The notes under the pieces are model-generated. The model saw only the letters and a program-made list of their open reading frames with translations. It searched no databases and was not told where the DNA came from. From the NCBI RefSeq assembly GCF_032884065.1, contig NC_088867.1:27699007-27763006 (forward strand): a DNA stretch of 64,000 nucleotides, in the 5' to 3' direction. Shown here one piece after another: positions 7,698 to 63,655 of the stretch. The position numbers were made by a program, and so were the translations under genes. Each line of letters begins with the position of its first letter. Position 1 is the first letter of the stretch. The DNA is from Artemia franciscana (Eukaryota; Arthropoda; Branchiopoda; Anostraca; Artemiidae).

Positions 7698-9397
7698 CAA
7701 ACAGTTCGTGGTAACGAACTGTAGTAAGGAGCGACCCGGCTCAATAGCAACCAAAACTCTAAAAAATGGAATTTTGATACCAATACCTACATAAAAAAAA
7801 ATCGCATTTTAATGCTGATTTTAAATATATAAGTTTCATCAAGTTTAGACTTACCCGTCAAAAGTTACGAGCCTGGGAAAATTTGCGTTATTTTAGAAAA
7901 TAGGGAGAAACGCCCCCTAGAAGTCATAGAATCTTGACAAAAATCACACCATCAGATTCAGCGTATCATAGAACTCTACTGTAGAAGTTTCAAGCTCCTA
8001 TCTACAAAAATGTGGAATTTTGTATTTTTTGCAAGAAGGCAGATCACAGATGCGTGTTTATTTGTTTTTTTGTTTTTTTTTTTTTTGTTTTTTTTTTTTC
8101 CCAGGGGTGATCGTATCGACCCAGTTGTCCTAGAATGTTGCAAGAGGGCTCATTCTAACTGAAATGAAAAGTTCTAGTGCCCTTTTTAAGTGACCAAAAA
8201 AATTGGAGGGCACCTAGGCCCCCCCCCCACGCTAATTATTTTACCAATGTCAACGGATCAAAATTCTGAGATCGCCATTTTATTCAGCGTAGTCGAAAGA
8301 CCTTATAACTATGTCTTTGGGGACGACTTACTCCCCCACAGTCCCCGTGGGAGGGGCAACAAGTTACAAACTTTGACCAGTGCTTACATATAGTAATGGT
8401 TATTGGGAAGTGTACAGGCGTTTTCAGGAGGATTTTTTTGGTTGGGGGAGGGGTTGAGAAGAGGGGGATATGCTGGGGGAACTTTCCATCGATAATTTGT
8501 CATGGGGAAAGAAAATCTCCATGAAGGGAGCGCAGGATTTACTAGCATTATTAAAAAAAAAAACAATGAAAAAATAAATATGAAAACGTTCTTTCAGCTG
8601 GAATTAAGGAGCAGCATTAAAACTTAAAACAAACAGAAATTATTACCCATTTGAGGGGCTCACCTCCTCCTAATACCTCACTCTTTACGCTAAAGTATTT
8701 TTAGTAATTTCAACTATTTATTCTGCGGCTTTTGTGATTATGGGGTCATTCTTAATGAATTGGGACAAAATTTAAGCTTTAGTGTAAAGAGCGAGGATCT
8801 GACAAGGGGGCGAACCCCCTCATATATGTAATAAAAATATGAGAATGCAAGAGTTCTTTACGTAAGCTAATTTATAAGTTACGTAAATCTTTTACTAATA
8901 AAAATTCTAGTTGCCTTTTTAATTAACCAAAAAATCGGAGGGCAACTAGGCTTCCTCCCCCGCTCTTTTTTTCTCAAAATCATTCGATCAAAATTATGAG
9001 AAAGTCATTTAGCCAAAAAAAAAAATGCAAATTTTGTTTTAATTATTCCTCTGCGGAGAGCCAAAATCAAAACATGCATTGATTCAAAAACGTTCAGAAC
9101 TTAATAAAAAAAACAAGTTTTTTTAACTGAAAGTAAGGAGCGACATTAAAACTTAAAACGACCAAAAATTACTTCGTATATGAAAGAGGCTGCTTCCTCA
9201 TCAACGCCCCGCTCTTTACGCTAAAGTTTTTTTACTGTTTTAAAAAGAAGAATTGAGAGAAAGAGTCAAACTTTAGCGTAAAGAGCGAGGCGTTGATGAG
9301 GAAGCAGCCTCTTTCATATACGAAGTAATTCCTGGTCGTTTTAAGTTTTAATGTCACTCCTTACTTTCAGTTAAAAAACTTGTTTTTTTTATTTAAT
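7698..9397 (+). mobile_element. Foldback element, complete copy C1
   Basis: About 1.7 kb, non-coding. The head hairpin at 7702-7721 has stem CAGTTCGT / ACGAACTG and loop GGTA, and is followed by GTAAGGAGCGAC. The tail hairpin has arms near 9112-9227 and 9268-9387 that pair almost perfectly, then CTTGTTTTTTTTATTTAAT. Internal landmarks include GGGGTGATCGTATCGACCC and the CCTAGGCCCCCCCCC block. No open frame has transposase character, so movement would depend on another element. A sequence like AATT flanks both ends, but a consistent target duplication was not found across copies. Confidence 0.85.
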
Positions 9398-10284
9398 TAG
9401 GAAAAAAATGGCAGGTACTTGCTACCAGTAACCTACATCCAAATGGCTCAGATTCTAATCCCTGTTTAAGAAAAAATTAGAGGAACTAATGATAATATAA
9501 GCCTGACTATTGTGTTAAGACTAAACACCAACTCAAAATTTTAAGTATTCAGATTCAGCAGACGAAAGATTTTTATGTTCAAATAAGTTTTTCTTATTTC
9601 CACTCTCACTATCACTTTCAATTGGGAAGAAGTAAAAAATAAAACAAAAACTAGATGGCAGAAATGGGATCTGAACACTAAGACTTTGAAGTATCTTTCC
9701 AAGCGTTTTTATCATATAGGGATTTATGGATACTTAGTAAATAATTCCAAAAATACTTCACCGAATCTTTACAAAAACGGTGTTGGGTACTTATGAATAG
9801 GGAGGAACCGACATAAAATTTTCCAATTTCCAACCAGTTTACATTGTGTTTCTATTTAATACGACCAGGGCAGTATTCAGGATTTTTTTCGAGGGAGTTT
9901 TACAAGAAGATTTTAATTTTGGAGGGGGGGGGACAAAGAACCTTTTTAAGCGCATCAAAAATTTGTTTTGGTACTTGTAGGAAATGCCCCCTACCTAATA
10001 TTCTTCAAATATGTTTTACTGACACTGAACCCTAATGAAATACACCTAAATATGATAAAAATATAATATTTAAAACAAATTTGGGCTATATTTTTATATA
10101 TTGGGGTAGGGGGTGGAATGGTGTAAAGTATTGTGGGTTTGCATGCCTAATGTGTTAGGTACAATTATTCTGCTTATTATTTAGTAAGAATTATTTTCTA
10201 CCTTCACACTGTCCAAATACTTTAGCACCACCTCACCACCCCTAATGTAAAAATATATAACCCAAATTGCATATTTTCTAATTA
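9398..10284. other. Intronic AT-rich DNA
   Basis: No gene recognised. Around 9865-10030 there is a poly-G bearing segment (GAGGGGGGGGGACAAAG) resembling the short repeat near 14115-14180, which reads GGGGAGGGGGGTCAAAATCC. Both could be remnants of one dispersed element. Confidence 0.4.
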
Positions 10285-11367
10285 ATCTGTCACTTCTCTT
10301 TGTCTTGTCTCACGTTAAGCTAGAAAAAAAGACAAGAGCTAAGAGCTCATATGGCACTTCTGACGAGGCAAGAAGAGCTAAGAGCCAAGAGATCATATGG
10401 CATGAGCTCTAACAAAATTTTATGAATCAATAGATTGATTTAAAAAGGAAAAAATGAGACTTAATGCCGGTCAGGATTTAAAATAAGAGCTCTGAGTCAC
10501 GATGTCCTTCTAAAAATTAAAATTCATTAAGATCTGATCACCCACTCGTAACTTATAAATACCTAATTTTTCTAATTTTTCCTCTCCCTTTAGCCCCCCA
10601 GATGGTTGAATCTGGGAAAACGACTTTTTGAAGTCAAATTGTGCAGCTCCCTGGCACGCCTACCAATTTTCATCGTCCTAGCACGTCCAGAAGCACCAAA
10701 CTCACCAAATCACTGAACCCTTCCCCCAACTCCCCCAAAGAGAGCGAATCCGGTCCGATTCTGTCAATCATGTATCAAGGACATTTGCTTATTCTATCCA
10801 CCAAGCTTCATCCCGATTCCTCCACTCCAAGTGTTTTCCAAGATTTCCCCCTCCAACTCCCCCCAATGTCAAAAGATCTGGTCGGGATTTGAAATAAGAG
10901 CTCTGAGACATAAATTCCTTCTAAATATCAAATTTTATTAAGATCCGATCACCTATTTGTAAGATAAAAATACCCCAATTTTCACGTTTTCCAAGAATTC
11001 CAGTTTCCCCCTCCAACTCCCCTCAATGTCATAGGATCTGGTCGGAATTTAAAATTAGAGCTTTTTTTAAATTAGAGCTCATTTAAAATTAGAGCACAAG
11101 ATCCTTCTAAATATAAAATTTCACTAAGATCTGGTCACCCTTTCGTAAGTTACAAATACCTCAATTTTAAAAATTACCCCCCACCCAACTCCACCAAAGA
11201 GATCAGATCCGGTCCGGTTATTTCAGTCACGTATCTTAGACAGGTTTCTATTCTTCCCATCAAGTTTCATCCTGATCTCACCGCTTTAAGTATTTTCTAA
11301 GATTTCCGGTCCCCCCCCCCAACTGCCCCCCACAATTACGCTTGATCCGGATGAGATTTAAAATAAG

Positions 11368-11377: not shown

Positions 11378-13273
11378 TGAGATTTAAAGGAATGTAAAGA
11401 AAGCGGAGAAAGCATTAAAATATGAACTAAGGAGATGTGAAGTGGAGGCGATGGATAAAATTGCTGAGGATCTGGAAGATGCGGCTAGACAGCATAATAG
11501 TAAAATATTATACTGGCATGTTAATAAATTGAAAGGGAGTAGCCAATCCGGACTAGTCCCAGTTTAAGATAGAAATGGGGCCACAATTAGTGATAAGGAA
11601 AAAGTTAAAGAAAGATGGGTGGAACATTTTGAGAATGTGCTAAACCGAGACACAGTTGCAGGAAAAGATATAGATGAAAATGAAAAAGTTTGTGATACCT
11701 TGGATGTGAAGGAATATTTGTTTAGTGAGGAAGAATTAGCGACAGTACTAAAAGGATTAAAAAATAATAAGGCCCCAGGTGCTGATAGTATGATTAATGA
11801 GTTTCTTAAATATGGTGGCTCTGAGGTTAGGAATAAGCTACTGAAGATTATGAACATGATTTTTGAAAAAGGGGAAGCACCCAATGATTTTAGGAAAACC
11901 TTAATTAAACCACTGTATGAGAAAGGTGACAAGAGTGAGTGTCGTAATTATCGAGGCATTAGTCTGGTCTCTGTAGGTAGCAAATTACTGAGTAATATGA
12001 TACTTTTTAGACTGAGACATGCTGTAGACAAAGTTTTAAGGGAAGAACAATGCAGTTTTAGGAAAGGTAGAGGATGTGTCGACCATGTTTTCACTCTTAG
12101 GTTAATAATTGAGAAGTCCCTTCGTTGTCAAACACCTTTGGTCCTCATGTTTTATCGATTATGAGCAAACTTTCGATTCTGTTGATAGAACAGCGTTAAC
12201 AAAGGTCTTGTCGTTATATGGTATACCTGAAAAATATATTAAAGAGATTTGCGCCATGTACGAGAATAATACTGCTGCCGTTAAGGTAGGAAATGAGGTT
12301 AGCAACTGGTTTTGTATTAAATCAGGAGTTAAGCAGGGTTGCGTTCTATCCCCCTTTATATGGATCATTTTGATGGACTTCGTCTTAAGGAGCACAGGAA
12401 AGGCAATTGGAGACCATGGAATCAAATGGGGAGAAAGAACGCTCCTGGACTTAGATTATGCTGATGATTTAAGCATATTAGATGAAAGTGTGAGCAAAAT
12501 GAATTAATTTTTAGAGGTTTTACGAGTTCAGGGTGCTAAAATAGGCTTGAAAATTAATGTTAAGAAGACTAAGTTACTAAGGCTAGGAATAAGTGAAGAT
12601 GAACATGTGACATTAGGTAACGAAAAGATTGATCAGGTTGGGAGCTTCAGTTACCTTGGTAGTATTATTAGTAAAGATGGTGGGAGCAGTGAAGATGTTA
12701 AAAGTAGAATAGCTAAGGCCCAGGGTGTTTTTTCACAGTTAAAAAAAGTTTGGAAGAATAGAAAGATAAGTCTACAAACCAAGATTAGAATATTGGAAGC
12801 TACAGTGATGACAGTGGTCAAGTATGGCTCTGAAGCATGGGTACTCCGAAAAGCAGATGAAAATTTACTAGATGTTTTCCAGAGAAATTGCCTACGGATT
12901 GTTCTGGGTACCCGGCTGACTGACCGTATTTCAAACAGTAGGTTGTACGAAAAGTGTGGTTCAATCCCGCTTTCTGGGGCCATAATGAAAGAAAGGTTGA
13001 GATGGCTAGGCCACGTTCTACGGATGAAGGATGACAGATTACCGAAGATTGTCCTTTTTGGCCAACCGTCTGGGGCTACACGGAAAGCAGGTCGTCCTTG
13101 TCTGGGTTGGGAGGATGTCATAAATAAAGATTTAAAGGAAATGGGAACTTCCTGGGAGGGTGTAAAGAGGGAGGCTTTAAATAGACTAGGTTGGAGGAGG
13201 AGCGTGCGTAGCTGTGTTGGCTTCAGGCGGCTTGGTGCTGCAGTGAGTTATTATTAGTAGTAGTAGTAGTAGT
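11378..13273 (+). mobile_element. 5'-truncated non-LTR retrotransposon, recent but defective
   Basis: Encodes most of a LINE polymerase protein without its endonuclease domain, which would be upstream and is missing by 5' truncation. In order: a linker (NVKKAEKALKYELRR, about 11391); fingers and palm (NKAPGADSMINEFLKYGG near 11770; KGDKSECRNYRGISLVS near 11922); motif A as FIDYEQTFDSVDR (about 12151-12190); GVKQGCVLSPFIW; the catalytic motif YADD within DLDYADDLSIL (about 12450-12480); and thumb plus C-terminal region (LGSIISKDGG; RNCLRIVLGTRLTDRISNSR; ERLRWLGHVLRM). Breaks: in-frame TAA at 11565-11567, a frameshift near 12150, and TAA at 12505-12507. The short tail and TAG repeat end resemble RTE/CR1-like elements, but I did not settle the clade. 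Confidence 0.93.
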
Positions 13274-14549: not shown

Positions 14550-15092
14550 ATAATGCTTTTTACTGTTTTAAAAAGCTGAGTTGAGAGAAAGAGTCAAACT
14601 TTAGCGTAAAGAGCGGGACGTTAATGAGGAAGCAGTCCCTTTCATATACGAAGTAATTTCTGTTCGTTTTAAGTTTTAATGTCGCTCCTTACTTTCAGCT
14701 AAAAAAAACTTGTTTTTTTATTTAATCAACTGAAAGTAATCACCCCTAGGAATAACAACAAAACAAATCAATGCACATTTTTGTAAATAGGAGCTTGAAA
14801 CCTCTGTAGCAAGGCTCTTAAAGAGTGGCAAGATTTTCATTATGATCATTTGATTTTTTGGTCTGTTTCCCTCCTTTTTCAAAAATTATAAAAGTATTCT
14901 AAGGCTCGTAGTTTACGATTGTTAAAATTAAACTAAATGTTAAACTGAAATTTATACATTTGCAATTAACATAAAAAGCCAATTCTTTTGAATTATCAAC
15001 TGTTATCAAACCTTCATTTTCTGAAGTTTCGTCTACATTTGGACAGAGTCACTCCTTACTTAAAGTTCGTTACCATGAACTGTATGATAGGC
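14550..15092 (-). mobile_element. Foldback element, diverged internally deleted copy (C13)
   Basis: The left part (14550-14745) is a loop-plus-one-arm piece of the tail hairpin ending in CTTGTTTTTTTATTTAATC. It is followed by an inverted stub (AACTGAAAGTAA), then fragments in minus orientation: CACATTTTTGTAAATAGGAG near 14773 and a head palindrome GTTCGTTACCATGAAC near 15066. The middle of the element is gone. This is an older equivalent of the miniature at 24208. Confidence 0.65.
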
Positions 15093-18930: not shown

Positions 18931-19143
<213 letters not shown>

Positions 19144-19147
19144 TGAA

Positions 19148-20298
19148 ACGTTCGATAGTTCGATAGCAAACGAAACTCTAAAAAACAGAATTTTGATACT
19201 AATAGATACATCATATGAATCGGGTGTTTATGATGATTTTAAATATACAAGTTTTAACAAATTTAGTCTAACCTATCAAAAGTTAAGAGCCTGGGAAAAT
19301 GTACTTTATTTTGGAAAATAGGGAAAGCACCCCCTAAAAGTTGTAGAAGCACAAAAATCATACTATCGCATTTAGCGTATCAGAGAACCCTTAAGAAAAA
19401 TCATATCGTCACATTAAGCATATCAGAGAACCCTACTGTAGAAGTTTCAAACTACTATCTACAAAAATGTAGAATTTCATATTTTTTGCCAAAAGACCGA
19501 TCACGGTTGCGTGTTAATTTTTTTGTTTTTTTTTCCCAGGGATCGTATCAACCCAGTGGTCATAGAACGTAGCAAGAAGGTTGTTCTAACAGAGAAACAA
19601 AAATGGAGGGCACCTAGGCCCCCTTCCGCGCTCATTTTTTTCCAAAAGTCAATGGATTAAAATTTTGAGATGGCCATTTTGCTCAGCATAGTCGCATAAC
19701 CTAATAACTTTGTCTTTGGGGATCAGTTACTACTACCTCATGACTTACTAGTCTCCGTGGGAGGGCCTAAAAGTTACAAACTTTGAGCAGCGTTTACATA
19801 AAGTAATGGTTATTGGGAAGTGTACAGACATTTTCAAGCGGATTTGTTTTGGTTGAGGGGAGGGGGGCTGAGGAAAACGGGCTACGTGGGAGGGTCTTTC
19901 CATGAAGGAATTTGTCATGGGGGAAGAGAGTTTCCATGGAGGGGGCACAGGATTTTCTAGGATTATTTAAAAAAAATACAAATGAAAAAGTTTTTCAACT
20001 GAAAGTAAAGAGCGGAATTAAAACTTAAAACGAACAGAAATTATTCTGCATATGAGGGGCTCATCTCCTTTTAAGTACCTTGCTCTTTACGCTAAAGTAT
20101 CTTTTGTAGTTTCAACTGTTTTATAGTTTTTTACTGTTTTAAAAAGTAGAGTTGAGAGAATGAGTCAAACCCTAGCGTAAAAAGCAGAGCGTTGAGGAGG
20201 GAACAGCCCCTTTCATACACGGAGTAATTTCTGTTCGTTTTAATTTTTAATGTCGCTCCTTTATTTCAGTTTAAAAAAAAATTGTATTATTTAATTTC
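19148..20298 (+). mobile_element. Foldback element, diverged copy C11
   Basis: A recognisable but older copy beginning inside the head (GTTCGATAGCAAACGAAACTC). It runs through AAAATGTAGAATTTC, CCCAGGGATCGTATCAACCC and ATAAAGTAATGGTTATTGGG, ending in one arm of the tail hairpin and a degraded AATTGTATTATTTAATT terminus. The head hairpin is degraded and the tail has lost its first arm. The left side is fused to the (TA)n tract. Confidence 0.8.
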
Positions 20299-23870: not shown

Positions 23871-24207
23871 TAAATTCTTTATTTTCTTATTTCTGAAATA
23901 GCTTATCTTTAATTATCTGATAACCCAAAATCATTTCAGCATTTTGTCCGCTGTTAGTGGGTAAGGGCCGGGTCAATCCTACCTCAACTTAATTGATAGT
24001 GCCAACTCTTCCTAATAATTCATGCAGGTCCTTAATTCGTATTTGTTTTTCTAGTTCTTCTTCTACTTGACTGAGATGGTCGTCATCCGATTCATTTCTG
24101 TAACTTATTTTGAGTCACCAGAGATTTTATCTATTTGTAAAAAGTGTATATATGTTGAATATACGCTGGTAAATTTGAACCAACCAAAAATTCGATTTCG
24201 GTGGTTT

Positions 24208-24737
24208 CAAACAGTTCACGGTAACGAACAACCCGGTAAGGAACGACCCGGCTAAATAGTAAATGAAACTCTAAAAAATATAATTTTGATACCAATAGTT
24301 ACAATTAAAAAATTGCACTTTAATGATGATTTTAGATATAAGTTTCATCAAGTTTAGTCTTACCCATCAAAAGTTACGAGCCTGAGAAAATTTGGCTTAT
24401 TTTAGAAAATAGGGAGAAACGCCCCCTAAAAGTCATAAAATCTTAACGAAAATCACACCGTCGCATTCAGAATATCAGAGAACCCCACTGTAGAAGCTTG
24501 AAGCTCCTATCTACAAAAATGTGGATATTCGTATTTTTTGCCAGGAGACCGATCTCAAATCGTGTTTATTTGTTATTTATGTTTTTTGTATTTTTTTTTA
24601 TTTCTTTTTCCCAGGGGTGATCGTATCGACCCAAAGTTCCTAGAATGTTACAAGAGGGCTCAGTCTAACGGGAATTAAAAGTTTTAGTGCCCTTTTTAAG
24701 TGACTTTCAGTTGAAAAAACTTGTTTTTCATTTGATT
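24208..24737 (+). mobile_element. Foldback element, internally deleted miniature (C2)
   Basis: Begins at a slightly altered head hairpin (CAGTTCACGGTAACGAAC) and follows the family consensus for about 495 bases to CCTTTTTAAGTGAC. It then jumps directly to the extreme tail, TTTCAGTTGAAAAAACTTG. About 1.2 kb of the middle and the whole tail hairpin are missing, yet both ends remain. The break lies at about 24704, with a base or two shared between the two sides. Confidence 0.9.
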
Positions 24738-28530
<3,793 letters not shown>

Positions 28531-29440: not shown

Positions 29441-29494
29441 TAAGCGTTGGAAACACGTAGTAACACCAGCCAGATGATGCTGATTAATTAAAAT

Positions 29495-31160
29495 TAAATG
29501 AAAAAAAACAAGTTTTTTTTAACGGAAAGTAAGGAGCGACATTAAAACTTAAAACGAACAGAAATTACTTCGTATATGAAAGGAGATGCTTCCTCATCAA
29601 CGCCCCGCTCTTTACGCTAAAATTTGACTCCTTCTCTTAACTCTACTTTTTAAAACAGTAAAAAACTTTAGCGTAAAGAGCGGGGCGTTGATGAGGAAGG
29701 ATCTTATTTCATATACGAAGTAATTTCTGTTCGTTTTAAGTTCTAATGTCGCTCCTTACTTTCTTGTTTTTTTTTAATTTCTGAACGTTTTTGAATCAAT
29801 GCATGTTTTGATTTTGGCTCTCCGCAGATGCATAATTAAAAAAAATTTGCATATTTATTTTTTTGCTAAATGGCTTTCTCGTAGTTTTGATCGAATGATT
29901 TTGAGAAAAAAAGGAGCTGGGGAGGAGGCCTAGTTGCCCTCCGATTTTTGGTTACTTAAAAAGGCAACTAGAACTTCTAATTTTTTTACGAATGTTTTTA
30001 TTAGTAAAAGATATACGTAACTTACAAATTAGCTTACATAGCGAACTTCTGTATTCTCATTTTTTTTTTACGTATACAAAGGGGTTCACCCCTTCGTCAA
30101 AACCTCGCTCTTTACACTAAAGCTTAAATTTTGTTCCAATTTCTTAAGAATGACCCCTGAATCACAAAAGCCGTAGAATATATAGTTGAAATTACTTAAA
30201 ATACTTTAGCTTTAAAAAGAGCGAGGTATTAGGAGGCGGTGAGCCCATCATATGCGTAATAATTTCTGTTCGTTTTAAATTTCAATGCTTCTCTTTACTT
30301 TCAGTTGAAAAAACATTTTTCATATTTATTTTTTCATTGTATTTTTTTAAATAGTGCTAGATAATCCTGCGCTCCCTTCATGCAAATTTTCTTCCCCCTT
30401 GACAAATTCCTCCAAGGAAAGTTCCCCCAACATATCCCCTTCTTCTCAACTCCTCCCCCAACTTAAAAATCCCCCTGAAAACGTTTGTACATTTCCAAAT
30501 AACCATTACTATATGCAAGCACTGGTCAAAGTTTGTAACTTGCGGCCCCTCCCACGGGGAGTAAGTCGTCCCCAAAGACATAGTTATGAGGTTTTTTGAC
30601 TACGCTGAATGAAATGGCTATCTCAAAATTTTGATCTGGTGACCTTAGGAAAACAATTAGCGTGGGAGGGGGCCTAGGTGCCCTCCAATTTTTTTGGTCA
30701 CTTAAAAAGGGCAGTAGAACTTTTGATTTCAGTTATAATGAGCCCTCTCGAAAGATTCTAGGACCACTGGGTCGATACGATCACCACTGGAAAAAAACAA
30801 CAACAAACAAACAAATAAACACGCATCCGTGATCTGCCTTCTGGCAAAAAATACAAAATTCCACATTTTTGTAGATAGGAGCTTGAAAATTCTACAATAG
30901 AGTTCTCTGATACGCTGAATCTGATGGTGTGATTTTTGTTAAAATTCTATGACTTATAGGGGTTGTTTTCCCCTATTTTCTAGAATAAGGCAAATTTTCT
31001 CAGGCTCGTAACTTTTGATGGGTAAGACTAAACTTAATTAAGATTATATGTGTAAAATCAGCATTAACATGTGATTTTTTTGATGTAGCTATTGATATCA
31101 AAATTCCATTTTTTAGAGTTTTGGTTACTATTGAGCCAGTTCGTTTACACGAACTGTTTG
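29495..31160 (-). mobile_element. Foldback element, complete copy C9
   Basis: The tail hairpin lies at the left (29507-29770) and the head hairpin at the right (CAGTTCGT TTAC ACGAACTG, 31138-31157). The usual GTAAGGAGCGAC segment next to the head is deleted (GAGCCAGTTCGTTTAC). The arms of the tail hairpin match well, with one side carrying AGGATCTT and the other AGGAGATG. Confidence 0.85.
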
Positions 31161-31259
31161 ATAGATCACTTCAGAGACACAAAACTTAAAATTAAGCAAG
31201 GGAGCAAGAGGGAACTCATTACCGTCCCTCTGAAGTTTGCTAAAGTTTCACTATTAATT

Positions 31260-33582
<2,323 letters not shown>

Positions 33583-43773: not shown

Positions 43774-43999
43774 TTCTTCGCTATCAATCAGTAACCACAT
43801 GATCAAAGGCTATTCCTCAGCGTTGAAAAAAAAAACAACAACAAAATAGTATCGAAAGAATGGAAATTGACTTTGCAGCCAGTTGAACTTTATCCTTTTC
43901 AATCATAGACATCGTGAAGGATGAAAACTCGAAACAATCTATATATATAAAAATAAGTTGTCTGTGTGTGGATCTGTGGATGGATCAGGTGACGTCACC

Positions 44000-44920
44000 T
44001 GAAAAAACTGGATCAGGTGACAAAACTGAAAACTGAAAAAACTAAAAAAAGGCAAAAACTACAAAAAAAACTAAAAACTAATAAAAAAAATAAAAAAGCT
44101 AAAAAACTAAAAAAACTAAAAAAAGGCAAAAACTCCAAAAAAAACTAAAAACTAATAAAAAAGCTAAAAAACTAAAAAAACTAAAATAAGGCAAAAACTA
44201 CAAAAAAAAACTAAAAACTAATAAAAAAAATAAAAAAGCTAAAAAACTAAAAAAACTAAAAAAACTAAAAAAAGGTAAAAAACTAAAAAAACTAAAAACT
44301 AAAAAAAAACTAAAAAAAAAGGAAAAAACTGAAAAATAAGCTAAAATAAAGGTAAAAACCAATAAAAAACTAAAAAAAAAACTGAAAAAACTAAAAAAAA
44401 GGCAAAAACTACAAAAAAAAACTAAAAACTAATAAAAAAAGTAAAAAAGCTAAAAAACTAAAAAAACTAAAAAAACTAAAAAAAGGTAAAAAACTAAAAA
44501 AAATAAAAAAAAAAAACTAAAAAAAAGGAAAAAACTGAAAAATAAGCTAAAATAAAGGTAAAAACCAATAAAAAACTAAAAAGAAAAAAAGAAAAAACTA
44601 AAAAAAATTTTCATCTAAAAAACTAAAAAAAACTAAAAAAGGTAAAAACTAAAAGAACTAAAAAAGAAAAAAATAAATGACGACACTCAAAGAGAAAGCG
44701 ACCAGGACAAAAGGAATGTTCGATTAGCAATCAACAAAGCACCGGGACACAGGGAGTATAAATGACGACCAGGACATAAGTAAAAAAAAAACTAACAAAA
44801 CTAAAAAGAAGGTAAAAACTACAAAAAAAAAAGAAAAAAAAACTAAAAACTAATAAAAAAACTAAAAAATCTAAAAATCTAAATAAACTAAAAAAGAAAA
44901 AAAAAAGGAAAAAAATAAAG
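44000..44920 (+). repeat. A-rich tandem repeat inside the Helitron
   Basis: Irregular repeats of AACTAAAAAAACTAAAAAAA, GGCAAAAACTAC, AATAAAAAAGCTAAAAAACT and GGTAAAAACC. A longer period of roughly 300 bases (about 44200-44400 and 44430-44590) is visible. Confidence 0.9.
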
Positions 44921-45094: not shown

Positions 45095-45290
45095 TGGTCG
45101 ATTAGCAATCACCATCAACAAAGCTCAAGGGCAATCATTAGAATCATGAGGTATAGATCTGAATACAGATTGTTTTCCCATGGACCATTATATGTTGCAT
45201 GTTCAAGAGTCGGTAAACCTGACAATCTATTTATATGCAAAGACAATGGGACAGCAAAGAATGTTGTATATTCGCAAGTTTTACGTAGTT
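45095..45290 (+). pseudogene. Helitron helicase C-terminal fragment
   Basis: Reads RLAITINKAQGQSLES, then TGA, then GIDLNTDCF. After a one-base frameshift near 45177 it continues SHGPLYVACSRVGKPDNLFI, CKDNGTAKNVVYSQVLR and a stop. INKAQGQSL and LYVACSRV are the last conserved helicase motifs of Pif1-like proteins of Helitrons. A duplicated shorter echo of its beginning (RLAINKA) lies near 44718-44742. Confidence 0.85.
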
Positions 45291-45294
45291 AAAA

Positions 45295-45296
<2 letters not shown>

Positions 45297-45352
<56 letters not shown>

Positions 45353-45362
45353 ATCTATCTAT
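45297..45362. repeat. (TA)n plus (CTAT)n microsatellite in the Helitron
   Basis: About 53 bases of TA followed by CTATCTATCTAT. Confidence 0.95.
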
Positions 45363-45448
45363 ATTCACAGGTGGGACATAGGGACACAACTACAATGGCG
45401 CGTAACTATTATGGCGCGTAACGACTTACGCGCGCGGGGGGGCTTGGG

Positions 45449-45476
45449 GGGGGCGCGAAGCGCCCCCACCAACTAG
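45449..45476 (+). repeat. Additional upstream Helitron 3' end
   Basis: Stem GGGGGCGC, loop GAA, stem GCGCCCCC (45449-45467), then ACCAA and CTAG (45473-45476). Complete in form, 37 bases before the terminus actually used. Confidence 0.8.
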
Positions 45477-45794
45477 GTATTGGGGTGGCGCGAAGCGCCA
45501 CCCCAACAGCTAGTATCTTATATAATCTAGTTGGTATTATAAAGCTATCCCTAACTTTTCAGGATCAAAAATGGCACTCTATTACCATAGATGGCACTCT
45601 ATTAATTATTACGAAACTATCTCATTGCTTTACATTCTCGTTTGTGCTTGTTTCTTCATTATAGTTAAATGATGAAGTTGCCAGCCTATTGAATTTTTCA
45701 AAACTATATGTTCAAACAAGAACGCAATCAGTTATCACACGACCAAAGGCTATTCTTCAGCGTTGAAAAAACAACAACTACAAAATAATATCGA

Positions 45795-48388: not shown

Positions 48389-49838
48389 CAAACAGTTCGT
48401 GGTAACGAGGAGCGACCCGGCTCAATAGTAAACGAAACTCTAAAAAACGGAATTTCGATGCTAAAAGATATATCAAAAGAATCGGATTTTTATGCTGATT
48501 TTAAATATATAAGTTTCATCAAATTTAGTCTTTGTCATCAAAAGTTACGTGCCTGAGAAAATTTGCCTTATTTTGGAAAATAGGGGGTAACACCCCCTAA
48601 AAGTCATAGGGTCTTAATGAAAATTACACCATCGCATTCAGCGTATCAGAGAACCATATAGAAAAAATTACAAGGTCCAATCTACAAAAATGTGGAATTT
48701 CGTTTTTTTTGCCAGAAGACAAATCACGGGTGCGTGTTTATTTGTTTTTTTGTTGTTTTTTTTTTTCCCAGGGGTCATCGTATCGACCAAGTGGTCCTAG
48801 AGTGTTGCAAAAGGGCTCATTCTAACGGAAATGAAAAGTTCTAGTGCCCTTTTTAAGTGACCAAAAAAATTGGAGGGCACCTAGGCCCCCTCCCACGCTC
48901 ATTTTTCTCCAAAGTCAACGGATCAAAATTTTGAGATAGCCATTTTGTTCCGCATAGTCGAAAACTATAATAACTATGTCTTTGGGGATGACTTACCCCC
49001 CCACAGTCCCTGGGGGAGGGGCTGCAATTTACAAACTTTGACCAATGTTTACATACAGTAGGTTAATGGTTACTGGGAAGTGTACCGACGTTATCAGGGG
49101 GATTTTTTTTTGGTTTGGGTGTGGGGTTCAGGGGAGGGGGCTATATGGGAGGATCTTTCCTTGGAGGAATATTTCATGGGGGAAGAGAAATTCAATGAAA
49201 AGGGCGCAGGACTTTCTAGCATTACTATAAAAAAAAACAATGAAAATGTAAACATGAAAAAGTTTTTTCAATTGAAAGTAAGGAGAAGCATTAAAGCTTA
49301 AAACGAACAGAGATTATTACGCATATGAGGGGTTCTAAAAATACTCTAGCATAAAGAGCGAGGTATTTAGGAGGAGATAAATACTTCGCTCTTTATGCTA
49401 AAATTTTTTTAAATAATTTCAACTATTTATTCTACGGCCTTTCTGATTCAGGGGTCATTCTTAAAGAATTGGGATAAAACAAGATTTAGTGTGAAGAGCG
49501 AGGTATTAACGAGGGGACCAACCCCCTCATATATATAATCAAAAATATAAGAATATAAAAGTTTGTTACGTAAGTTAATTCTTAAGTTACGTATTTTTTT
49601 TTACTAATAAAAACGTTCGTTAAAAATAAAAGGTCTAGTTGCCTTTTTAAGTAACCGAAAAATTGGAGGGCAACTAAACCTCCTTCCCCACCCCTTATTT
49701 CTCAAAATCGTCTGATCAAAACTAAGAGAAAGCCATTTAGCCAAAAAAAGAATTAATATGCAAATTTCAAATTTGTTTGTTTTAAGTTTTAATGTCGCTC
49801 CTTACTTTCATTTAAAAAAACTTGTTTTTTTATTTAAT
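48389..49838 (+). mobile_element. Foldback element, copy C4 lacking the tail hairpin
   Basis: The head is present but shortened (CAGTTCGTGGTAACGAGGAG; the ACTGTAGTA part is deleted, so the head cannot pair fully). The body is typical and most similar to C10. Near 49760 the body jumps to the last 60 bases of the distal arm, so the tail hairpin is missing, although the terminus CTTGTTTTTTTATTTAATT is kept. Confidence 0.88.
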
Positions 49839-50148
49839 TTCAATTTAGGATCGTCATAACTAACATAGGGATCAATTGCACTTTCTTCGTAAGTAAGAAG
49901 TATAGAATTTCTCTCTAAGCATTAAGTTAACTTAAGCTTCAAGGATCTATGCTGAAGATTCTCTTCTCTCCCAAGGTCAAAATAAATGAATCCTTAAGAT
50001 TTCGCTATAATGAGAAGCAAAATGTCTACTATCCTGAGAATTGATCATTTTTTATTTTCAAAAACCTGTTGTTTTTTTCACAGATTTTTTCCTTAACTAG
50101 ACTTTATGACAATTGGAATTGGCCACAGAATATGAGGATTTGACTTAC
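49839..50148 (-). other. TMC intron between C4 and the first recognised exon
   Basis: No other feature seen. Confidence 0.5.
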
Positions 50149-50378: not shown

Positions 50379-52070
50379 CTATAATGAGGATATAATCATT
50401 TTCTGTTTATTTATTATTCATCGTGGCTACTATAACTAAAAGATTGTTGCATACCCTAGTAATTTTTTCAGCAGTAAGAAGCAGGGATATACCCTATAGC
50501 AGACCATAGCCTGGAATTTAAATCTAGGGGGGGGGATTTTCGGCTAGGTTTCAAATGTGTTAAGTTGCAAGTAAATCCTATACTTAAAAGGTATTTAATT
50601 AGCATTAGTCATGAAAATTACCAATTAATTAGCCACAAATTTAGATATAGAAATGTAATTTTTGTATTGCTTTGGGGTAGATGGGGAAGTAAAAAGTTGT
50701 ACCAGGTTCCAGGCGTCGTAAGGAGCCTTATGTCTTGTAGTGGATTGATTACCTAAGTAATCTCTTTAATTTATGAATTGTGATATAATATTAAGAGAAA
50801 CTTCAGAATAACTACAATTTTCTTTCTAAAGAAAAGTAAAACACTAAACAAATGTCTAAATTCGTATGTGCAATACCCTTGGAACGGCTTTCGGGAAGAA
50901 GTGAAATTTATCAGTAGTTTATTAGGGGCCAAGCGGACGTCAAATCTTGACACGAGGGAGTGGGAAGGGGTAAGGATCTAAAAGTTTGGTCTACCCCTGT
51001 TGGACTAAAATGTATCTCCGATGAAGTAGTGACACACTCTAAATAAACCATGCATACCCAGACTATTAAAATAGCATATTTGCATTGCTTCGGGACGCCT
51101 TGGGGATTAGAGTTAAAAAATTTCAAGGAATTCTGGGGGAAGGAGGAAGGTGGACCTATAATCCCCGGGACTCCAGGAGTGTGGTCTACATAAAATATTA
51201 GACCAGGTTGAGGAGGAAGAGACAAGGAGACTAAATATTTTATGCTTAGAAGAAGAGGATGTGAGGGAAATCCAATGTGTATTTCTGATTTACCTAGAAG
51301 TTTTGGCACTATTAGCTACAGTAGAATTTTGAATCCGTTGAAGGTTATTTAGTGACCTAAATGTAAAGACTATAGGCCTACATTCACCTAGACAATAAAA
51401 ATAGCATAATCTCAGGAAAGACAGGGGACAAAGTTGGAAGTTTAAAGGATTGTTTCGGGAAGGCAAGAGGAAATTAAACGGTATGCTCGGCGAAATAAAA
51501 AGTGTGTCAATTATTTAAATAAAGATACAAAGGCGGGAATTTTAAATATTGGTTTGTCCAAAATATATTGGTTCCCTTGCCAAGGTTAAGGACGGCGGGG
51601 AGACGAAAAAAATAAAATAAATTTAACAAGTTTCTGATGCCTCGTCCTTGAAGAGAATCCTCCTCTAACAGCATATTATTGCTTACACGGCTCCCTCCGT
51701 AGCCGACATTTAACCGAATTTTTCGTATCCTCAAATGCGCCAAAAGCCAATAATAGGTAAACCCACTGTAAACTCCGAAAAAATGCTTTTCCGTGTTAGA
51801 TAAATAATCAAATTCTCAAGTTCTTTCAATTGCCCATTTCCTAGATGACTACATTTGAATACACTGAGTATTTGCAGTAGCTGACAGATTAAAATAGGCC
51901 AGTTCCTGTCACATGCTTCGATGTTTATTTCTACCATAAGAATCTAAGGAAGAGAACACAGAGAAAGTCCCAATTTACAGAGAGTAAAGTAGGGAAAACT
52001 TTTACACCACTATCACTAGCAAAATGCAACAATCCCTCATCACCGAAGATAGTCACTGTGTAAGAAGATA
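50379..52070 (-). other. TMC intron, weakly repetitive
   Basis: No exon recognised. A word like AAAATAGCAT(A)nTTGCATTGCTTyGGG recurs near 50650, 51066 and 51400 with G-rich context, perhaps an old tandem repeat. At 51995-52060 there is a partial monomer of the 46085 array (ACTAGCAAAATGCAACAATC). An open frame at 51309-50911 is not recognisable. Confidence 0.4.
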
Positions 52071-52072
52071 CG

Positions 52073-52255
52073 CTAAATTTTTTTTTACTGTTTTAAAAAT
52101 TAGGATTAAGAGAAAGAGTCAAACTTTAGCGTAAAGAGCGGGGCGTTGATGAGGAAGCAGCCCCTTTCACATAAGAAGTCATTTCTGTTCGTTTTAAGTT
52201 TTAATGTCGCTCCCTACTTCCCATTAAAAAAACTTGTTTTTTTTAATTAATTGTT
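52073..52255 (+). mobile_element. Foldback element, single tail arm
   Basis: Loop and distal arm of the tail hairpin only (ACTTTAGCGTAAAGAGCGGG to CTTGTTTTTTTTAATTAATT). The body and proximal arm are absent. It follows directly on the 46085-type monomer. Confidence 0.85.
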
Positions 52256-55539: not shown

Positions 55540-55852
55540 GCTAATACAAAAGGATAATATATCATCCATGATATCAAAACGAAGATCAACAATTATAGAC
55601 TTTTTCAAAAGGAAACATTGGGTTGAAAGAAGACCTTTGTTGTTTGATAAAAACCTTATATGCACTATGAGGAAAATTCAGGAACACCCTGATTCAGATT
55701 CTGAATCTTCAAGCAAAGCTTATTCTTTGTTCTTTGCTATCTGCTTTTGAGACATGCAGTTTTGTTTGCAGCTATGCTTATTGTCAGTAAAGTTTTTAGT
55801 CTGTCACACAATTTGTCGACATCTTTGCAATCAGAAACTAAATATCTTGTAT
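55540..55852 (+). pseudogene. hAT-like transposase, N-terminal fragment
   Basis: Reads MISKRRSTIIDFFKRKHWVE, a charged linker with DSDSESSSK, and then, in another frame, VLFAAMLIVSKVFSLSHNLS followed by TSLQSETKYLV just before foldback C5. A start such as KRRSTIIDFFKRK and an SK-x-LS-x-xLQSE block are familiar from ZMYM1-like hAT transposases. The middle of the protein is missing. The identification depends on the C-terminal piece on the other side of C5. Confidence 0.5.
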
Positions 55853-56546
55853 CAAACAGTTGGTGATAACGGACCGTAGTAAGGAGCGAGTCGGCTCAAT
55901 AGTGGCCGAAACTCCAAAAAAAAGAATTTTTGTAACAATAGTTGCATCAAAAGAATTGCATTTTTATACTGATTTTAAATATATAAATTTTATTAAGTTC
56001 AAACTTACCCATCAAAAGTTACGAGCATGAGAAAATTTGCCTTATTTTAGAAAATAGGGGGAAACACCCCTTAAAAGTCGTAGAATGTTAACGAAAATAT
56101 AACTATCAGATTCAGCGTATCATAGATCCCGACAGTAGAAGTTTCAAGCTCATATCTACAAAAATGTGGAACATTTCATTTTTTACCACAAGACAGATCA
56201 CGGATGCGTGTTTATTTGTTTTTTTTTTTGTTGTTTTTTTTTTTGTTTTTTGTTGTTGTTTTTTGTCGAGGGGTGATCGCATCGACTCAGTGGTCCCAGA
56301 ATGTCGTCAGAGGGCTTATTCTAATGTAAATTAAAAGTTCTAGCGTCCTTTTTAAGCGACCTAAAAAATTGGAGGGCACCCAGGCCCCCTCCCACGCTCA
56401 TTTTTTCCCAAAGTCACCGGATCAAAATCCTGAGATAGCCGTTTTATTCAACATAGTCAAAAAACCCAATAAATATGTTTTGGGACGACTTACTCCCCTA
56501 CAGTCCCCGTGGGAGGGGCTGCAAGTTACATACTTTGACCAGTAAT
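55853..56546 (+). mobile_element. Foldback element C5, left part (split)
   Basis: Diverged head (CAGTTGGTGATAACGGACCG) and first 690 bases of a foldback element. It is interrupted after TTTGACCAGTAAT by the complete copy C6; the remainder is at 58268-59188. Confidence 0.9.
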
Positions 56547-58267
56547 CAAACAGTTCGTGGTAACAAACTGTAGTAAGGAGCGACCCGGCTCAATAGAAAC
56601 CACAACTCTAAAAAATGGAATTTTGATACCAATAGCTACATCAAAAGAATCGCATTTTAATGCTGATTTTAAATATATAAGTTTCATCAAGTTTAGTCTT
56701 ACGCACCAAAAGTTACGAGCCTGAGAAAATTTGTGTTATTTTAGAAAATAGGGGAACACCCCCTAAAAGTCATAGTATCTTAACAAAAATTACACCATCA
56801 GCTTCAGCGTATCAGAGAACCCTACTGTAGAAGTTTCAAGCTCCTATCTACAAAAATGTGGAACTTTGTATTTTTTGCCAGAAGGCAGATCACGGATGCG
56901 TGTTTATTTGTTTGTTTTTTTTTCTTTTTTCTTTTTTTCTTTTTCCCAGGGGTGATCGTATCGACCCAGTTGTCCTAGAATGTTGCGAGAGGGCTCATTC
57001 TAACGGAAATGAAAAGTTCTAGTACCCTTTTTAAGTGACCAAAAAAATTGGAGAGCACCTAGGCCCCCTCCCACGCTAATTATTTTTTCAAAGTCAACGG
57101 ATCAAAATTCTGAGACAGCCATTTTATTCAGCGTAGTCCAAAAGCTTATAACTATGTCTTTGGGGACGACTTACTCCTCCACAGTCCCCGCGGGAGGGGC
57201 TACAAGTTACAAACTTTAACCAGTGCTTACATATAGTAATGGTTATTGGGAAGTGTACAGGTGTTTTCAGGAGGATGTTTTGGTTGGGGGAGGGGTTTAA
57301 AAGAGGGGGATATACTGGGGGAACTTTCCATCGAGGAATTTGACATGGGGGAAGAAAATTTCCATGAAGGGAGCGCAGGATTTACTAGCATTATTTAAAA
57401 AAAAAAACAATGAAAAAATAAATATGAAAAAGTTTTTTCAGCTGGAAGTAAGGAGCAGCATTAAAACTTAAAACGAACAGAAATTATTACCCATATGAGG
57501 GGCTCACCTCCTCCTAATACCTCGCTCTTTACGCTAAAGTATTTTTAGTAATGTCAACTATTTATTCTACGGCTTTTGTGATTTAGGGGTCATTCTTAAT
57601 GAATTGGGCCAAAATTTAAGATTTAGTGTAAAGAGAGAGGTACTGACGAGGGGGCGAACCCTCTCATATGTGTAATAAAAACATGAGAATAAAAATTCTT
57701 TACGTAAGCTAGTTTATAAGTTACGTATATCTTTTACTAATAAAAAGATTCGTAAAAAATTACAAGTTCTAGTTGCCTTTTTTACTAACCAAAAAATTGG
57801 ATGGAAATTAGGCTTCCTCCTCCGCTCTTTTTTCTCAAAATCATTCGATCAAAATTATGAGAAAGCCATTTAGCCAAAAAAAAAAAAAAAAAATGCAAAT
57901 TTCGTTTTAATTATTTCTCTGCGGAGAGCCAAAATCAAAACATGCATTGATTCAAAAATGTTCAGAAATTTAATAAAAAAAAACAAGTTTTTTCAACTGA
58001 AAGTAAGGAGCGACATTAAAACTTAAAACGAACAGAAATTACTTCGTATATGAAAGGGGCTGCTTCCTCATCAACGCCCCGGTCTTTACGCTAAAGTTTT
58101 TTACTGTTTTGAAAAGAAGAGTTGAGAGAAAGAGTCAAACTATAGCGTAAAGAGCGGGGCGTTGATGAGGAAGCAGCCCCTTTCATATACGAAGTAATTT
58201 CTGTTCGTTTTAAGTTTTAATGTCGCTCCTTACTTTTAGTTGAAAAAACTTGTTTTTTTTTATTTAA
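56547..58267 (+). mobile_element. Foldback element, complete copy C6, nested in C5
   Basis: Head CAGTTCGTGGTAACAAACTG (56551-56570); body close to consensus; tail hairpin arms about 57986-58100 and 58138-58252, ending TTTTTTTTTATTTAATT. It is inserted in C5 between CCAGT and GCATATAGTAATGG, which are adjacent blocks in intact copies. AAT appears at both junctions. Confidence 0.92.
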
Positions 58268-59188
58268 TTGCATATAGTAATGGTTATTGGGAAGTGTACA
58301 GACACTTGCAGGGGGAATTTTTTTGTTGGGGTGGGGGAGGGGTTGAGGGGAGAGGTTTATGCGGGGAAAACTTTCCATGAAGGAATTTGTCACGGGGGAA
58401 GAAAAATTTTCATGAAGGGGACGCAGGATTTTTTGGCATTTTTTTTAAGATCAATGAAAAAATAAACGTGAAAAACTTTTTTCAACTGAAATTAAGGAGC
58501 AGCATTAAAACTTAAAACGAACAGAAATTATTACGCATATGAGGGGTTCACCTTCCCCTAACACCTCGCTCATTACGCTAAAGTAATTTTATTAATTTCC
58601 AGTATTTATTCTACGGTCTTTGTGATTGAGGGGTCATGCTTAAGGAATTGGGACAAAATTTAAGCTTTAGTTTAAAGAACGAAGAGGTTGACGAGGGGGT
58701 GAACCCCCTTATATACGTAATAAAAACATGGGAGTTATGTGAGTTAATTTATAAGTTACGTATATTTTTACTAATAAAAATTTTCGTAAAAAAATTAAAA
58801 GTTCTAGTTGCCTTTTTCAATAACCAAAAAATTAGAGGGTAACTAGGCCTGCTCTCCCACTCCTGTTTTGTCAAAATCGTCCGAATAAACTATGAGAAAG
58901 TCATTTAGCCATAAAAGGAAATTAATATGTAAATTTCGTTTTAATTATTCATTTGTGGAGAGCCAAAATCAAAACATGCATCAATTCAAAAACATTCAGA
59001 AATTGAAAAAAAGCAAGTTCTTTTAACTGAAAGTTAGGAGCGATATTAAAACTCAAAACGAACAGAAACTACTCCGCATATAAAAGGGGCTGTTCCCTCC
59101 TCAAAGCCCCGCTTTTTATGCAAAAGTTTTTAACTGTTTTAAAAAGTAGAGTTGAGAGAAAGAGTCAAACTTTAGCGTAAAGAGCGAA
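58268..59188 (+). mobile_element. Foldback element C5, right part (split)
   Basis: Resumes at GCATATAGTAATGGTTATTG and continues to the tail hairpin. It has the proximal arm and loop but breaks off in the distal arm at GCGTAAAGAGCG, where hAT-like sequence follows. More diverged than C6, in line with its greater age. Confidence 0.9.
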
Positions 59189-59189
59189 C

Positions 59190-60044: not shown

Positions 60045-61772
60045 TTAAATAAAAAAAACAAGTTTTTTCAACTGAAAGTAAGGAGTGACATCAAAACTTA
60101 AAACGCACAGAAATTACTTCGTATATGAAAGAGGCTGCTTCCTCATCAACGCCCCGCTCTTTACGCTAAAGTTTGACTCTTTCTCTCAATTCTTCTTTCT
60201 AAAACAGTAAAAAACTTTAGCGTAAAGAGCGGGGCGTTGATGAGGAAGCAGCCTCTTTCATATACGAAGTAATTTCTGTGCGTTTTAAGTTTTGATGTCA
60301 CTCCTTACTTTCAGTTGAAAAAACTTGTTTTTTTTATTTAATTTCTGAACGTTTTTGAATCAATGCATGTTTTGATTTTGGCTCTCCGCAAAGGAATAAT
60401 CAAAACGAAATTTGCATATTTTTTTTTTTTTTTTGGCTCAATGGCTTTCTCATAATTTTGATCGAATGATTTTGAGAAAAAAAGAGCGGGGGACGAAGCC
60501 TAGTTGCCCCCCGATTTTTTGGTTAATTAAAAAGGCAACTAGAACTTTTAATTTTTTACGAATCTTTTTATTGGTAAAAGATTTACGTAACTTATAAATT
60601 AGCTTACGTAAAGAACTTTTGTATTCTCATGTTTTTATTACATATATGAGGGGAATCGCCCCATCGTCAGTACCTCGCTCTTTACACTAAAGCTTAAATT
60701 TTATCCCAATTCATTAAGAATGACCCCCTGAATCACAAAAGCCGTAGAATAAGTAGTTGAAATTACCGAAAATACTTTAGCGTAAAGAGCGAGGTATTAG
60801 AAGGAGGTGAGCCCCTCATATGGGTAATAATTTCTGTTTGTTTTAAGTTTTATTGCTGTTCCTTACTTCCAGCTGAAAAAGCTTTTTCACTTTTATTTTT
60901 TAATTGTTTTTTTTTAAATAATGCTAGTAAATCCTGCTCTCCCTTCATGGAAATTTTCTTCTCCCATTACAAATTCTCGAAGGAAAGTTCCCCTAGCATA
61001 TCCCCCTCTTCTCAACCCCTCCCCCAAACCAAAAAAATCCTTCTGAAAACGCCTGTATACTTCCCAATAACCATTACTATATGTAAGCACAGGTCAAAGT
61101 TTGTAACTTGTTGCCCCTCCCACGGGGACTGTGGGGGAGTAAGTCGTCCCCAAAGACATAGTTATAAGGTTTTTCGACTACGCTGAATAAAATGGCTATC
61201 TCAGAATTTTGATCCGTTGACTTTGGGAAAATAATTAGCGTGGGAGGGGGCCTAGGTGCCCTCCAATTTTTTTGGTCACTTAAAAAGGGCACTAGAACTT
61301 TTCATTTCCGTTAGAATGAGCCCTCTTGCAACATTCTAGGACAACTGGGTCGGTACGATCACCCCTGGGGAAAAAAAAAAAACAAAAAAACAAAAAAACA
61401 AATAAACAAATAAACACGCATCCGTGATCTGCCTTCTGGCAAAAAATGCAAAATTCCACATTTTTGTAGATAGGAGCTCGAAACTTCTACAGTAGGGTTC
61501 TCTGATACGCTGAATCTGATGGTGTGATTTTCGTTAAGATTCTATGACTTTTAGGGGGCGTTTCCCCCTATTTTCTAAAATAACGCAAATTTTCTCAGGC
61601 TCGTAACTTTTGATGGGTAAGACTAAACTTGATGAAACTTATATATTTAAAACCAGCATTAAAATGCGATTCTTTTGATGTAGCTAATGGTATCAAAATT
61701 CCATTTTTTAGAGTTTTGGTTACTATTGAGCCGGGTCGCTCCTTACTACAGTTCGTTACCACGAACTGTTTG
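60045..61772 (-). mobile_element. Foldback element, complete copy C7
   Basis: Tail hairpin 60057-60331, head hairpin CAGTTCGT TACC ACGAACTG at 61749-61768. Nearly identical to C8, 1.89 kb further on. Both have the private arm variants GTGACATC and CGCACAG, mirrored exactly in the other arm (GATGTCAC, CTGTGCG). No coding capacity. Confidence 0.93.
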
Positions 61773-61934
61773 ATAACAGTATAGCGTGGCCTCTGATAGC
61801 GGTTGAAAGTGCGATTGAAAAAATTAAAAAAATTATAGACGAACTCTAGGCTATAGTCTTGCGTAAAAATAACATTGTAATTCACCTCTTTTCTCATCTA
61901 CGCTTGAAATAAGGAAACCATCCTTACAGATTAA
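61773..61934. other. Spacer between the two near-identical copies
   Basis: About 160 bases of sequence not repeated beyond C8 or before C7. This argues against a simple tandem duplication that included flanks. Confidence 0.6.
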
Positions 61935-63655
61935 TTAAATAAAAAAAACAAGTTTTTTCAACTGAAAGTAAGGAGTGACATCAAAACTTAAAACGCACAG
62001 AAATTACTTCGTATATGAAAGAGGCTGCTTCCTCATCAACGCCCCGCTCTTTACGCTAAAGTTTGACTCTTTCTCTCAATTCTTCTTTCTAAAACAGTAA
62101 AAAACTTTAGCGTAAAGAGCGGGGCGTTGATGAGGAAGCAGCCTCTTTCATATACGAAGTAATTTCTGTGCGTTTTAAGTTTTGATGTCACTCCTTACTT
62201 TCAGTTGAAAAAACTTGTTTTTTTTATTTAATTTCTGAACGTTTTTGAATCAATGCATGTTTTGATTTTGGCTCTCCGCAGAGGAATAATCAAAACGAAA
62301 TTTGCATATTTTTTTTTTGGCTCAATGGCTTTCTCATAATTTTGATCGAATGATTTTGAGAAAAAAAGAGCGGGGGACGAAGCCTAGTTGCCCCCCGATT
62401 TTTTGGTTAATTAAAAAGGCAACTAGAACTTTTAATTTTTTACGAATCTTTTTATTGGTAAAAGATTTACGTAACTTATAAATTAGCTTACGTAAAGAAC
62501 TTTTGTATTCTCATGTTTTTATTACATATATGAGGGGATTCGCCCCATCGTCAGTACCTCGCTCTTTACACTAAAGCTTAAATTTTATCCCAATTCATTA
62601 AGAATGACCCCCTGAATCACAAAAGCCGTAGAATAAGTAGTTGAAATTACCGAAAATACTTTAGCGTAAAGAGCGAGGTATTAGAAGGAGGTGAGCCCCT
62701 CATATGGGTAATAATTTCTGTTTGTTTTAAGTTTTATTGCTGTTCCTTACTTCCAGCTGAAAAAGCTTTTTCACTTTTATTTTTTAATTGTTTTTTTTTT
62801 AAATAATGCTAGTAAATCCTGCTCTCCCTTCATGGAAATTTTCTTCTCCCATTACAAATTCTCGAAGGAAAGTTCCCCCAGCATATCCCCCTCTTCTCAA
62901 CCCCTCCCCCAGACCAAAAAAATCCTCCTGAAAACGCCTGTATACTTCCCAATAACCATTACTATATGTAAGCACAGGTCAAAGTTTGTAACTTGTTGCC
63001 CCTCCCACGGGGACTGTGGGGGAGTAAGTCGTCCCCAAAGACATAGTTATAAGGTTTTTCGACTACGCTGAATAAAATGGCTATCTCAGAATTTTGATCC
63101 GTTGACTTTGGGAAAATAATTAGCGTGGGAGGGGGCCTAGATGCCCTCCAATTTGTTTGGTCACTTAAAAAGGGCACTAGAACTTTTCATTTCCGTTAGA
63201 ATGAGCCCTCTTGCAACATTCTAGGACAACTGGGTCGATACGATCACCCCTGGGGAAAAAAAAAAACAAAAAAACAAAAAAACAAATAAACAAATAAACA
63301 CGCATCCGTGATCTGCCTTCTGGCAAAAAATGCAAAATTCCACATTTTTGTAGATAGGAGCTCGAAACTTCTACAATAGGGTTCTCTGATACGCTGAATC
63401 TGATGGCGTGATTTTCGTTAAGATTCTATGACTTTTAGGGGGCGTTTCCCCCTATTTTCTTAAATAACGCAAATTTTCTCAGGCTCGTAACTTTTGATGG
63501 GTAAGACTAAACTTGATGAAACTTATATATTTAAAACCAGCATTGAAATGCGATTCTTTTGATATAGCTATTGGTATCAAAATTCCATTTTTTAGAGTTT
63601 TGGTTACTATTGAGCCGGGTCGCTCCTTACTACAGTTCGTTACCACGAACTGTTT
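61935..63655 (-). mobile_element. Foldback element, complete copy C8
   Basis: Same layout as C7; tail hairpin 61947-62221, head hairpin 63632-63651. Differences from C7 are few (for example AAAGGAATAATC versus GAGGAATAATC, GGAATCGCC versus GGATTCGCC, CTAGGTGCC versus CTAGATGCC, and poly-T length). Confidence 0.93.

Follow-up and report, generated by a model that had tools for sequence, protein, structure and literature searches.

A non-coding repeat family of Artemia franciscana with Helitron2-like ends and a foldback whose arms change together

A stretch of 64,000 nucleotides (nt) of Artemia franciscana DNA (C5:27699007-27763006 in a genome of 1,270,528,402 bases and 6,468 contigs; hereafter the window) carries many copies of a dispersed, non-coding element of about 1.6–1.9 kb, which has a small palindromic hairpin at its head and a large foldback hairpin at its tail. 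The two arms of a foldback agree better with each other than with the arms of other copies, and the loop between them is found in both orientations. On balance, the element is probably a non-autonomous rolling-circle transposon of the Helitron2/Helentron type (HINE-like), its arms being kept alike by template switching in the source lineage or during transposition. Such copying and the structural class are both already known; the loop flips are new, as is the pattern in which subfamily changes occupy both arms and private changes only one. A literature search of open-licence papers, mostly in the form of listings, turned up no Helitron2-like element whose 5′ foldback is giant, flips and is copied from itself.

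Copies and their ends

The family was revealed by comparison of the window with itself. The layout of head hairpin, body and tail hairpin, ascribed to at least eight copies in the initial annotation, is real: seven copies in the window retain both hairpins (arms of 101–133 nt, 92–100% complementary, with 37–65 nt in between) and an eighth has lost nearly the whole foldback; others are deleted, interrupted or fragmentary. The copies and pieces in the window are the following.

7697-9398, plus strand: full copy; foldback 9101-9396, loop forward
8560-8840, plus strand: degenerate inner hairpin in the body of the first copy, sharing about 76% identity with the terminal arm
14551-15089: rearranged short copy; a single arm with loop (14551-14727) adjoins a reversed head piece (14757-15089)
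19160-20298, plus strand: diverged copy with a chimaeric hairpin, an arm of the inner (older) type being paired with one of the terminal type
24205-24704, plus strand: head fragment
29492-31161, minus strand: full copy; foldback 29492-29763 with one arm shortened, loop forward; head without the AGTAAGGAGCGAC repeat
35320-36997, minus strand: full copy; foldback 35320-35609, loop inverted
38153-39880, plus strand: full copy, the reference; foldback 39575-39880, loop forward
48387 to about 49841, plus strand: copy with head and outer end (fragment 49774-49840) kept and nearly the whole foldback deleted
52069-52252, plus strand: stand-alone half-hairpin (loop and end-side arm)
55850-56543, plus strand: initial part of an older copy into which 56546-58269 is inserted
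56546-58269, plus strand: full copy inside the older one; foldback 57967-58269, loop forward; no target-site duplication seen
58268-59187, plus strand: second part of the older, interrupted copy; end-side arm mostly gone
60045-61773, minus strand: full copy; foldback arms 100% complementary, loop forward
61933-63657, minus strand: full copy; arms 100% complementary, loop forward; 98.7% identical to 60045-61773, with different flanks

Read in the orientation of the initial annotation, the head starts with the palindrome TCAAACAGTTCGTGGTAACGAACTGT, which is followed by the 13-nt repeat AGTAAGGAGCGAC. The tail is a foldback of about 300 nt with arms of about 130 nt and a loop of about 37 nt; in its outer part lie GTCGCTCCTTACT and a terminus rich in T that ends in ATTTAA(TT), and the tail end bears TTTATTTAA. 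The 13-mer forms an inverted repeat, 26–28 nt from the head end and 33–41 nt from the tail end, and is present on both arms of the foldback. In 17 scored copies, the set also used for reading insertion sites (the full copy 29492-31161, whose head lacks the 13-mer, stands outside it), the 13-mer was found with at most two mismatches in 16 heads and all 17 tails, and the palindrome with at most three mismatches in 16 heads. Sequence common to both ends amounts to only about 13–20 nt. Folded as DNA, the 306-nt tail of the reference copy (39575-39880) reaches −142.8 kcal/mol (z = −34 against 100 shuffles), and for the head palindrome, folded in two copies, z was −3.1 and −5.1. The body carries an older, degenerate hairpin of the terminal kind, as at 8560-8840.

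A genome search with one copy returned 16,828 candidate places at first look, and 40 of these, when scored, gave 95 matches across many contigs; the family covers about 27% of the window and about 15% of the neighbouring 200 kb. Two open reading frames overlapping a copy (141 and 99 amino acids), the body frames to which the test was applied, had no Pfam match at E values up to 1. A known structured RNA was considered and rejected, no Rfam family reaching its gathering score anywhere in the window. At least a dozen genome matches stop near query positions 77 and 1295, as if a second type of element shared only the middle; one such locus (C1:9214107) was read on both sides and proved to possess the head and most of the foldback, which makes it probable that the matches stop where the alignment breaks. 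The surrounding stretch (G000:C1:9213700-9215750; L042, L043) holds a head-to-tail pair, in which the end-side arm of one copy is cut short and the head of another begins about 20 nt further on; an inverted, diverged head is located upstream of it.

Agreement between the arms

The arms were compared in a single region of 264 kb, that is, the window and the adjoining 200 kb (labels L010 to L023 denote loci beside the window). It holds 23 tail hairpins, 4 of which could not be oriented by their body; from the 19 oriented ones a hairpin with a truncated arm was dropped, which leaves 18 copies for the arm test, the low-scoring L012:8307 (69.5%) and L023:5786 (84.2%) being retained. Mean arm identity is 93.7% within copies and 86.8% between them (86.5% among body-side and 87.3% among end-side arms), and none of 200,000 random re-pairings of the arms reaches the observed within-copy agreement; among the eight hairpins of the window, one of them the chimaera, 4 of 40,320 pairings do so. 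The agreement claimed in the initial annotation thus goes beyond chance, and the arm pairs quoted there are all present, under labels in another order: GTGACATC and CGCACAG occur on both arms at 60045 and 61933, CGACCAG with CTGGTCG at 38153-39880, and CTCCTCGACACCCC with its complement at 35320-36997.

Clustering of arms by side, which the initial annotation named as an outcome that would refute it, is not seen: in an arm tree built on 17 copies, with 34 arms (two of the 19 oriented hairpins omitted), the side label needs 11 changes, the mean after shuffling is about 11.5, and counts as low as that observed arise in 253 of 500 shuffles for one label and in 262 for the other. The agreement is mostly at the level of subfamilies and less strictly by copy. 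Of 28 diagnostic sites over five subfamilies, 21 show the change on both arms, among them a one-base deletion, and 7 do not, whereas changes private to a copy lie on one arm in 57 cases and on both in 3. Therefore, the matching of arms takes place in transposing source lineages or near the time of transposition, after which the arms of resident copies mostly decay independently. The proposed regeneration of one arm from the other is supported in this form by the missing side signal, the two-armed sites and the two loop orientations; a continuing conversion of resident copies is not supported, given 57 private changes against 3. Branch lengths were not used for dating because terminal branches contain the history of unsampled sources.

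Forward loops number 12 and inverted ones 7 among the 19 oriented hairpins, and one close group contains both states. On a tree of bodies from 15 copies (four were omitted, their bodies being partial or composite) well-supported branches force at least two changes of orientation, and L010:8746 and L011:6616, taken there as forward and inverted, respectively, are sisters. The same close group includes L010:1480 and L011:4552, in each of which the blocks next to the loop differ between the two arms; L011:6616 carries the body-side block type on both arms, and L010:8746, called flipped in the block comparison, the end-side type on both. Copying in two directions together with a flip, all within one small group, is hard to explain by compensation of one base at a time.

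Template switching is the simplest account of this copying. In yeast, switching between the arms of an inverted repeat is described as homogenizing the arms and inverting the spacer, reversibly (PMC8604942), and the process has been proposed for RNA stems in a study which counts loop inversions as well (PMC8794818). Both traces, homogenized arms and inverted spacers among close relatives, are seen here; unlike the cases presented in these two sources, which mainly concern short arms and loops, the family has arms of about 130 nt, a 37-nt loop, and is mobile. The switch by which one arm would be copied from the other would either stay inside the hairpin or pass between strands at a fork, and would take place in active source lineages or in the course of transposition; differences between arms would become fixed in either direction, the loop would sometimes be flipped, and after insertion the arms would decay independently. 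The element itself would move by rolling circle, served by an autonomous helper. If most of the 16,828 candidate places are real, the family has recorded arm-to-arm copying in a 130-bp inverted repeat many times over, and the direction, tract length and rate of the copying, together with the loop flips, could be tallied against the age of the copies.

The foldback might instead be renewed at every transposition, the transposing strand folding at its end and one arm being rewritten from the other, such that new copies start out matched. The fully complementary arms of the youngest pair (60045, 61933), the 57 to 3 excess of one-armed private changes and the two loop orientations are all in keeping with this; however, at least L010:1480 and L011:4552, which share unlike arm blocks, were not renewed before or at insertion, and ordinary template switching in source copies covers the same data, which makes obligatory renewal an unlikely scenario. 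Were it true, a eukaryotic transposon would possess a hairpin-copying step akin to the hairpin-primed replication of some single-stranded DNA viruses. Still less probable is that host recombination goes on converting the arms of resident copies after insertion, in the manner of ordinary gene conversion. According to literature listings, gene conversion homogenizes long inverted repeats elsewhere, and the three private changes found on both arms could be its products; these could derive from unsampled sources, and 57 private changes have stayed on one arm only.

Half-hairpins of about 160–185 bp, made up of the loop and a single arm, occur on their own and begin near the stem-loop junction. Besides the less clean case in the window (52069-52252), they were found at the following places.

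L012:6367-6541: half-hairpin
L012:8667-8844: half-hairpin
L019:5313-5476, minus strand: half-hairpin
L022:8098-8270: half-hairpin

The recurring start point suggests that the stem-loop junction can act as an alternative end or as a breakage point. Two stand-alone foldbacks without body lie at L012:544-1618 (positions 134544-135618 of the 264 kb); in one, an insert separates two copies of the loop, and in the other the centre is complex and includes loops of either orientation.

Relation to known transposons

The initial annotation could not assign the family to any standard transposon class. Judged from its sequence and read in reverse, it appears to have most, although not all, of the end structure of Helitron2/Helentron elements: the "tail" foldback would be the 5′ end, its 5′ hairpin enlarged and enclosing the 5′ subterminal repeat, and the 3′ terminal hairpin would correspond to the "head" palindrome. 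Helitron2 is described as having its 3′ repeat 20–30 bp from the 3′ end, just upstream of the hairpin, and its 5′ repeat 0–2 bp from the 5′ end, inside the 5′ hairpin (PMC3627910). The family shares with it short, asymmetric terminal inverted repeats with the 3′ copy just inside the 3′ hairpin (26–28 nt from the end, in 16 of 17 copies) and the 5′ copy inside the 5′ hairpin. In the account of DINE-1 and HINE elements (PMC4067079), subterminal repeats of 12–15 bp are combined with a 3′ stem-loop and TT or T-rich targets, and the 5′ inverted repeat of DINE-1 is nested in the 5′ copy. Like these, the family is non-coding and very abundant, with subterminal inverted repeats, a 3′ stem-loop, and T-rich ends of varying length; unlike it, they are described with a TT target and a short 5′ inverted repeat, that of HINE lying 2–4 nt from the 5′ end (PMC4067079). 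Two insertion sites were read, that of the nested copy 56546-58269 and one with a paralogous empty site, and at neither was a target-site duplication seen; the right end of the second copy is unusual. If the copying of arms is tied to transposition, it would bear on the role of the 5′ hairpin of Helitron2-type elements.

Several features weigh against assigning the family in this way or against the copying process ascribed to it. In all 17 scored copies the 5′ repeat lies 33–41 nt inside the end, compared with 0–2 bp in Helitron2 and 2–4 nt in HINE, the 5′ hairpin, with arms of about 130 nt, is far larger than in the elements described (PMC3627910, PMC4067079), and the further full copy at 29492-31161 has a head without the repeat. 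The base before the head is A in 12 of the 17 copies, T in 4 and G in 1 (p = 0.001 for A), and T usually follows the TTTAA end; the apparent A|T target is of the canonical Helitron type and is neither the TT given for Helentrons nor the TTTT|T/C given for Helitron2 (PMC5148889). The head as read starts with TC, as in a canonical Helitron, which makes the reversed orientation a tentative one. Where the interrupted copy has AA next to the nested insertion, relatives have GY, so that a small change of the target may have occurred. The own partner arm is the best or tied-best match in only 6 of the 18 copies, and template switching is something we infer from its traces only. Finally, no helper with the family's ends was found at the canonical Helitron loci (L025-L041) or in 1,551 bases upstream of one match to PF20209 (DUF6570).

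Helitrons are reported to make up 8.81% of the A. franciscana genome (PMC11492255); the rolling-circle class is thus very abundant in this species, as is the family, whose ends differ from those of the canonical Helitron. The canonical class (Helitron1) was rejected for the family; the TC start and A|T target would fit, but a CTRR end with a hairpin some 10–12 nt before it is lacking. The canonical Helitron of this genome, which encodes a RepHel protein (L040, L041), has a 3′ end formed by a GC-rich hairpin and then CTAG. It was also rejected as a partner: its 3′ end differs, and neither the family nor its end motifs were matched in 15 loci (L025-L039) and two stretches of 10 kb (L040, L041). 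A 3′ remnant of this Helitron, ending in the GC-rich hairpin and CTAG as judged against L040 and L041, lies in the window at 45100-45500.

PF20209, which we take to be typical of Helentron-like proteins, has 47 matches in the genome, in open frames of up to 2,701 amino acids. The 1,551 bases read upstream of one match are all coding and include a ubiquitin hydrolase domain. At this place (G000:C4112:9950-11500; L045, L044) the frame encodes, upstream of the match, this domain (PF00443) as well as a long region of charged repeats, and probably belongs to a large Helentron-like polyprotein.

That the family is a foldback or miniature inverted-repeat (MITE-type) element of a cut-and-paste superfamily, its foldback retained at one end, is improbable. 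In foldback elements of the Galileo and Tetris type, long repeats bound the element on both sides, and here the foldback is one-ended. A non-coding body with a long inverted repeat would suit such an element, and literature listings name foldback transposons with long inverted repeats in animals, large inverted repeats being what the family has in common with Galileo and Tetris (PMC4168063, PMC2775673, PMC4079207); however, its two ends share only about 13–20 nt and the two insertion sites read, two only, lack a duplication. Mitochondrial genes of Nematomorpha are likewise described with long perfect inverted repeats, up to 284 bp; these sit within coding genes and not in a mobile family (PMC6649704).

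Selection for a paired hairpin by compensatory point mutations, one by one and without copying, is the least credible alternative: a paired 5′ hairpin may matter for transposition, and compensatory changes are reported for the ends of Helitron2, namely in the 5′ hairpins of one pair of elements (PMC3627910), but it would have to produce inversions of the whole loop, block changes of several bases, a concerted one-base deletion and pairing over about 130 nt, and to tolerate a change from GTCGC to GTCAC which the copies at 60045 and 61933 retain on both foldback arms and lack in their heads, weakening the match between hairpin and head. Covarying bases in a stem need not imply selection for pairing.

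Other features of the window

Long microsatellites of the TA type adjoin copies of the family or lie near them (18931-19150, 31200-31470), and there is a separate array of short units at 43990-44430. At 11568-13257 there is a broken reverse transcriptase resembling that of non-LTR retrotransposons, that is, those without long terminal repeats (PF00078, E = 4e-6, slightly under the curated cut-off). On the minus strand, the open frame 27748-28530 encodes a TMC (transmembrane channel-like) domain (PF07810, E = 2e-20) and is probably an exon of a host gene.

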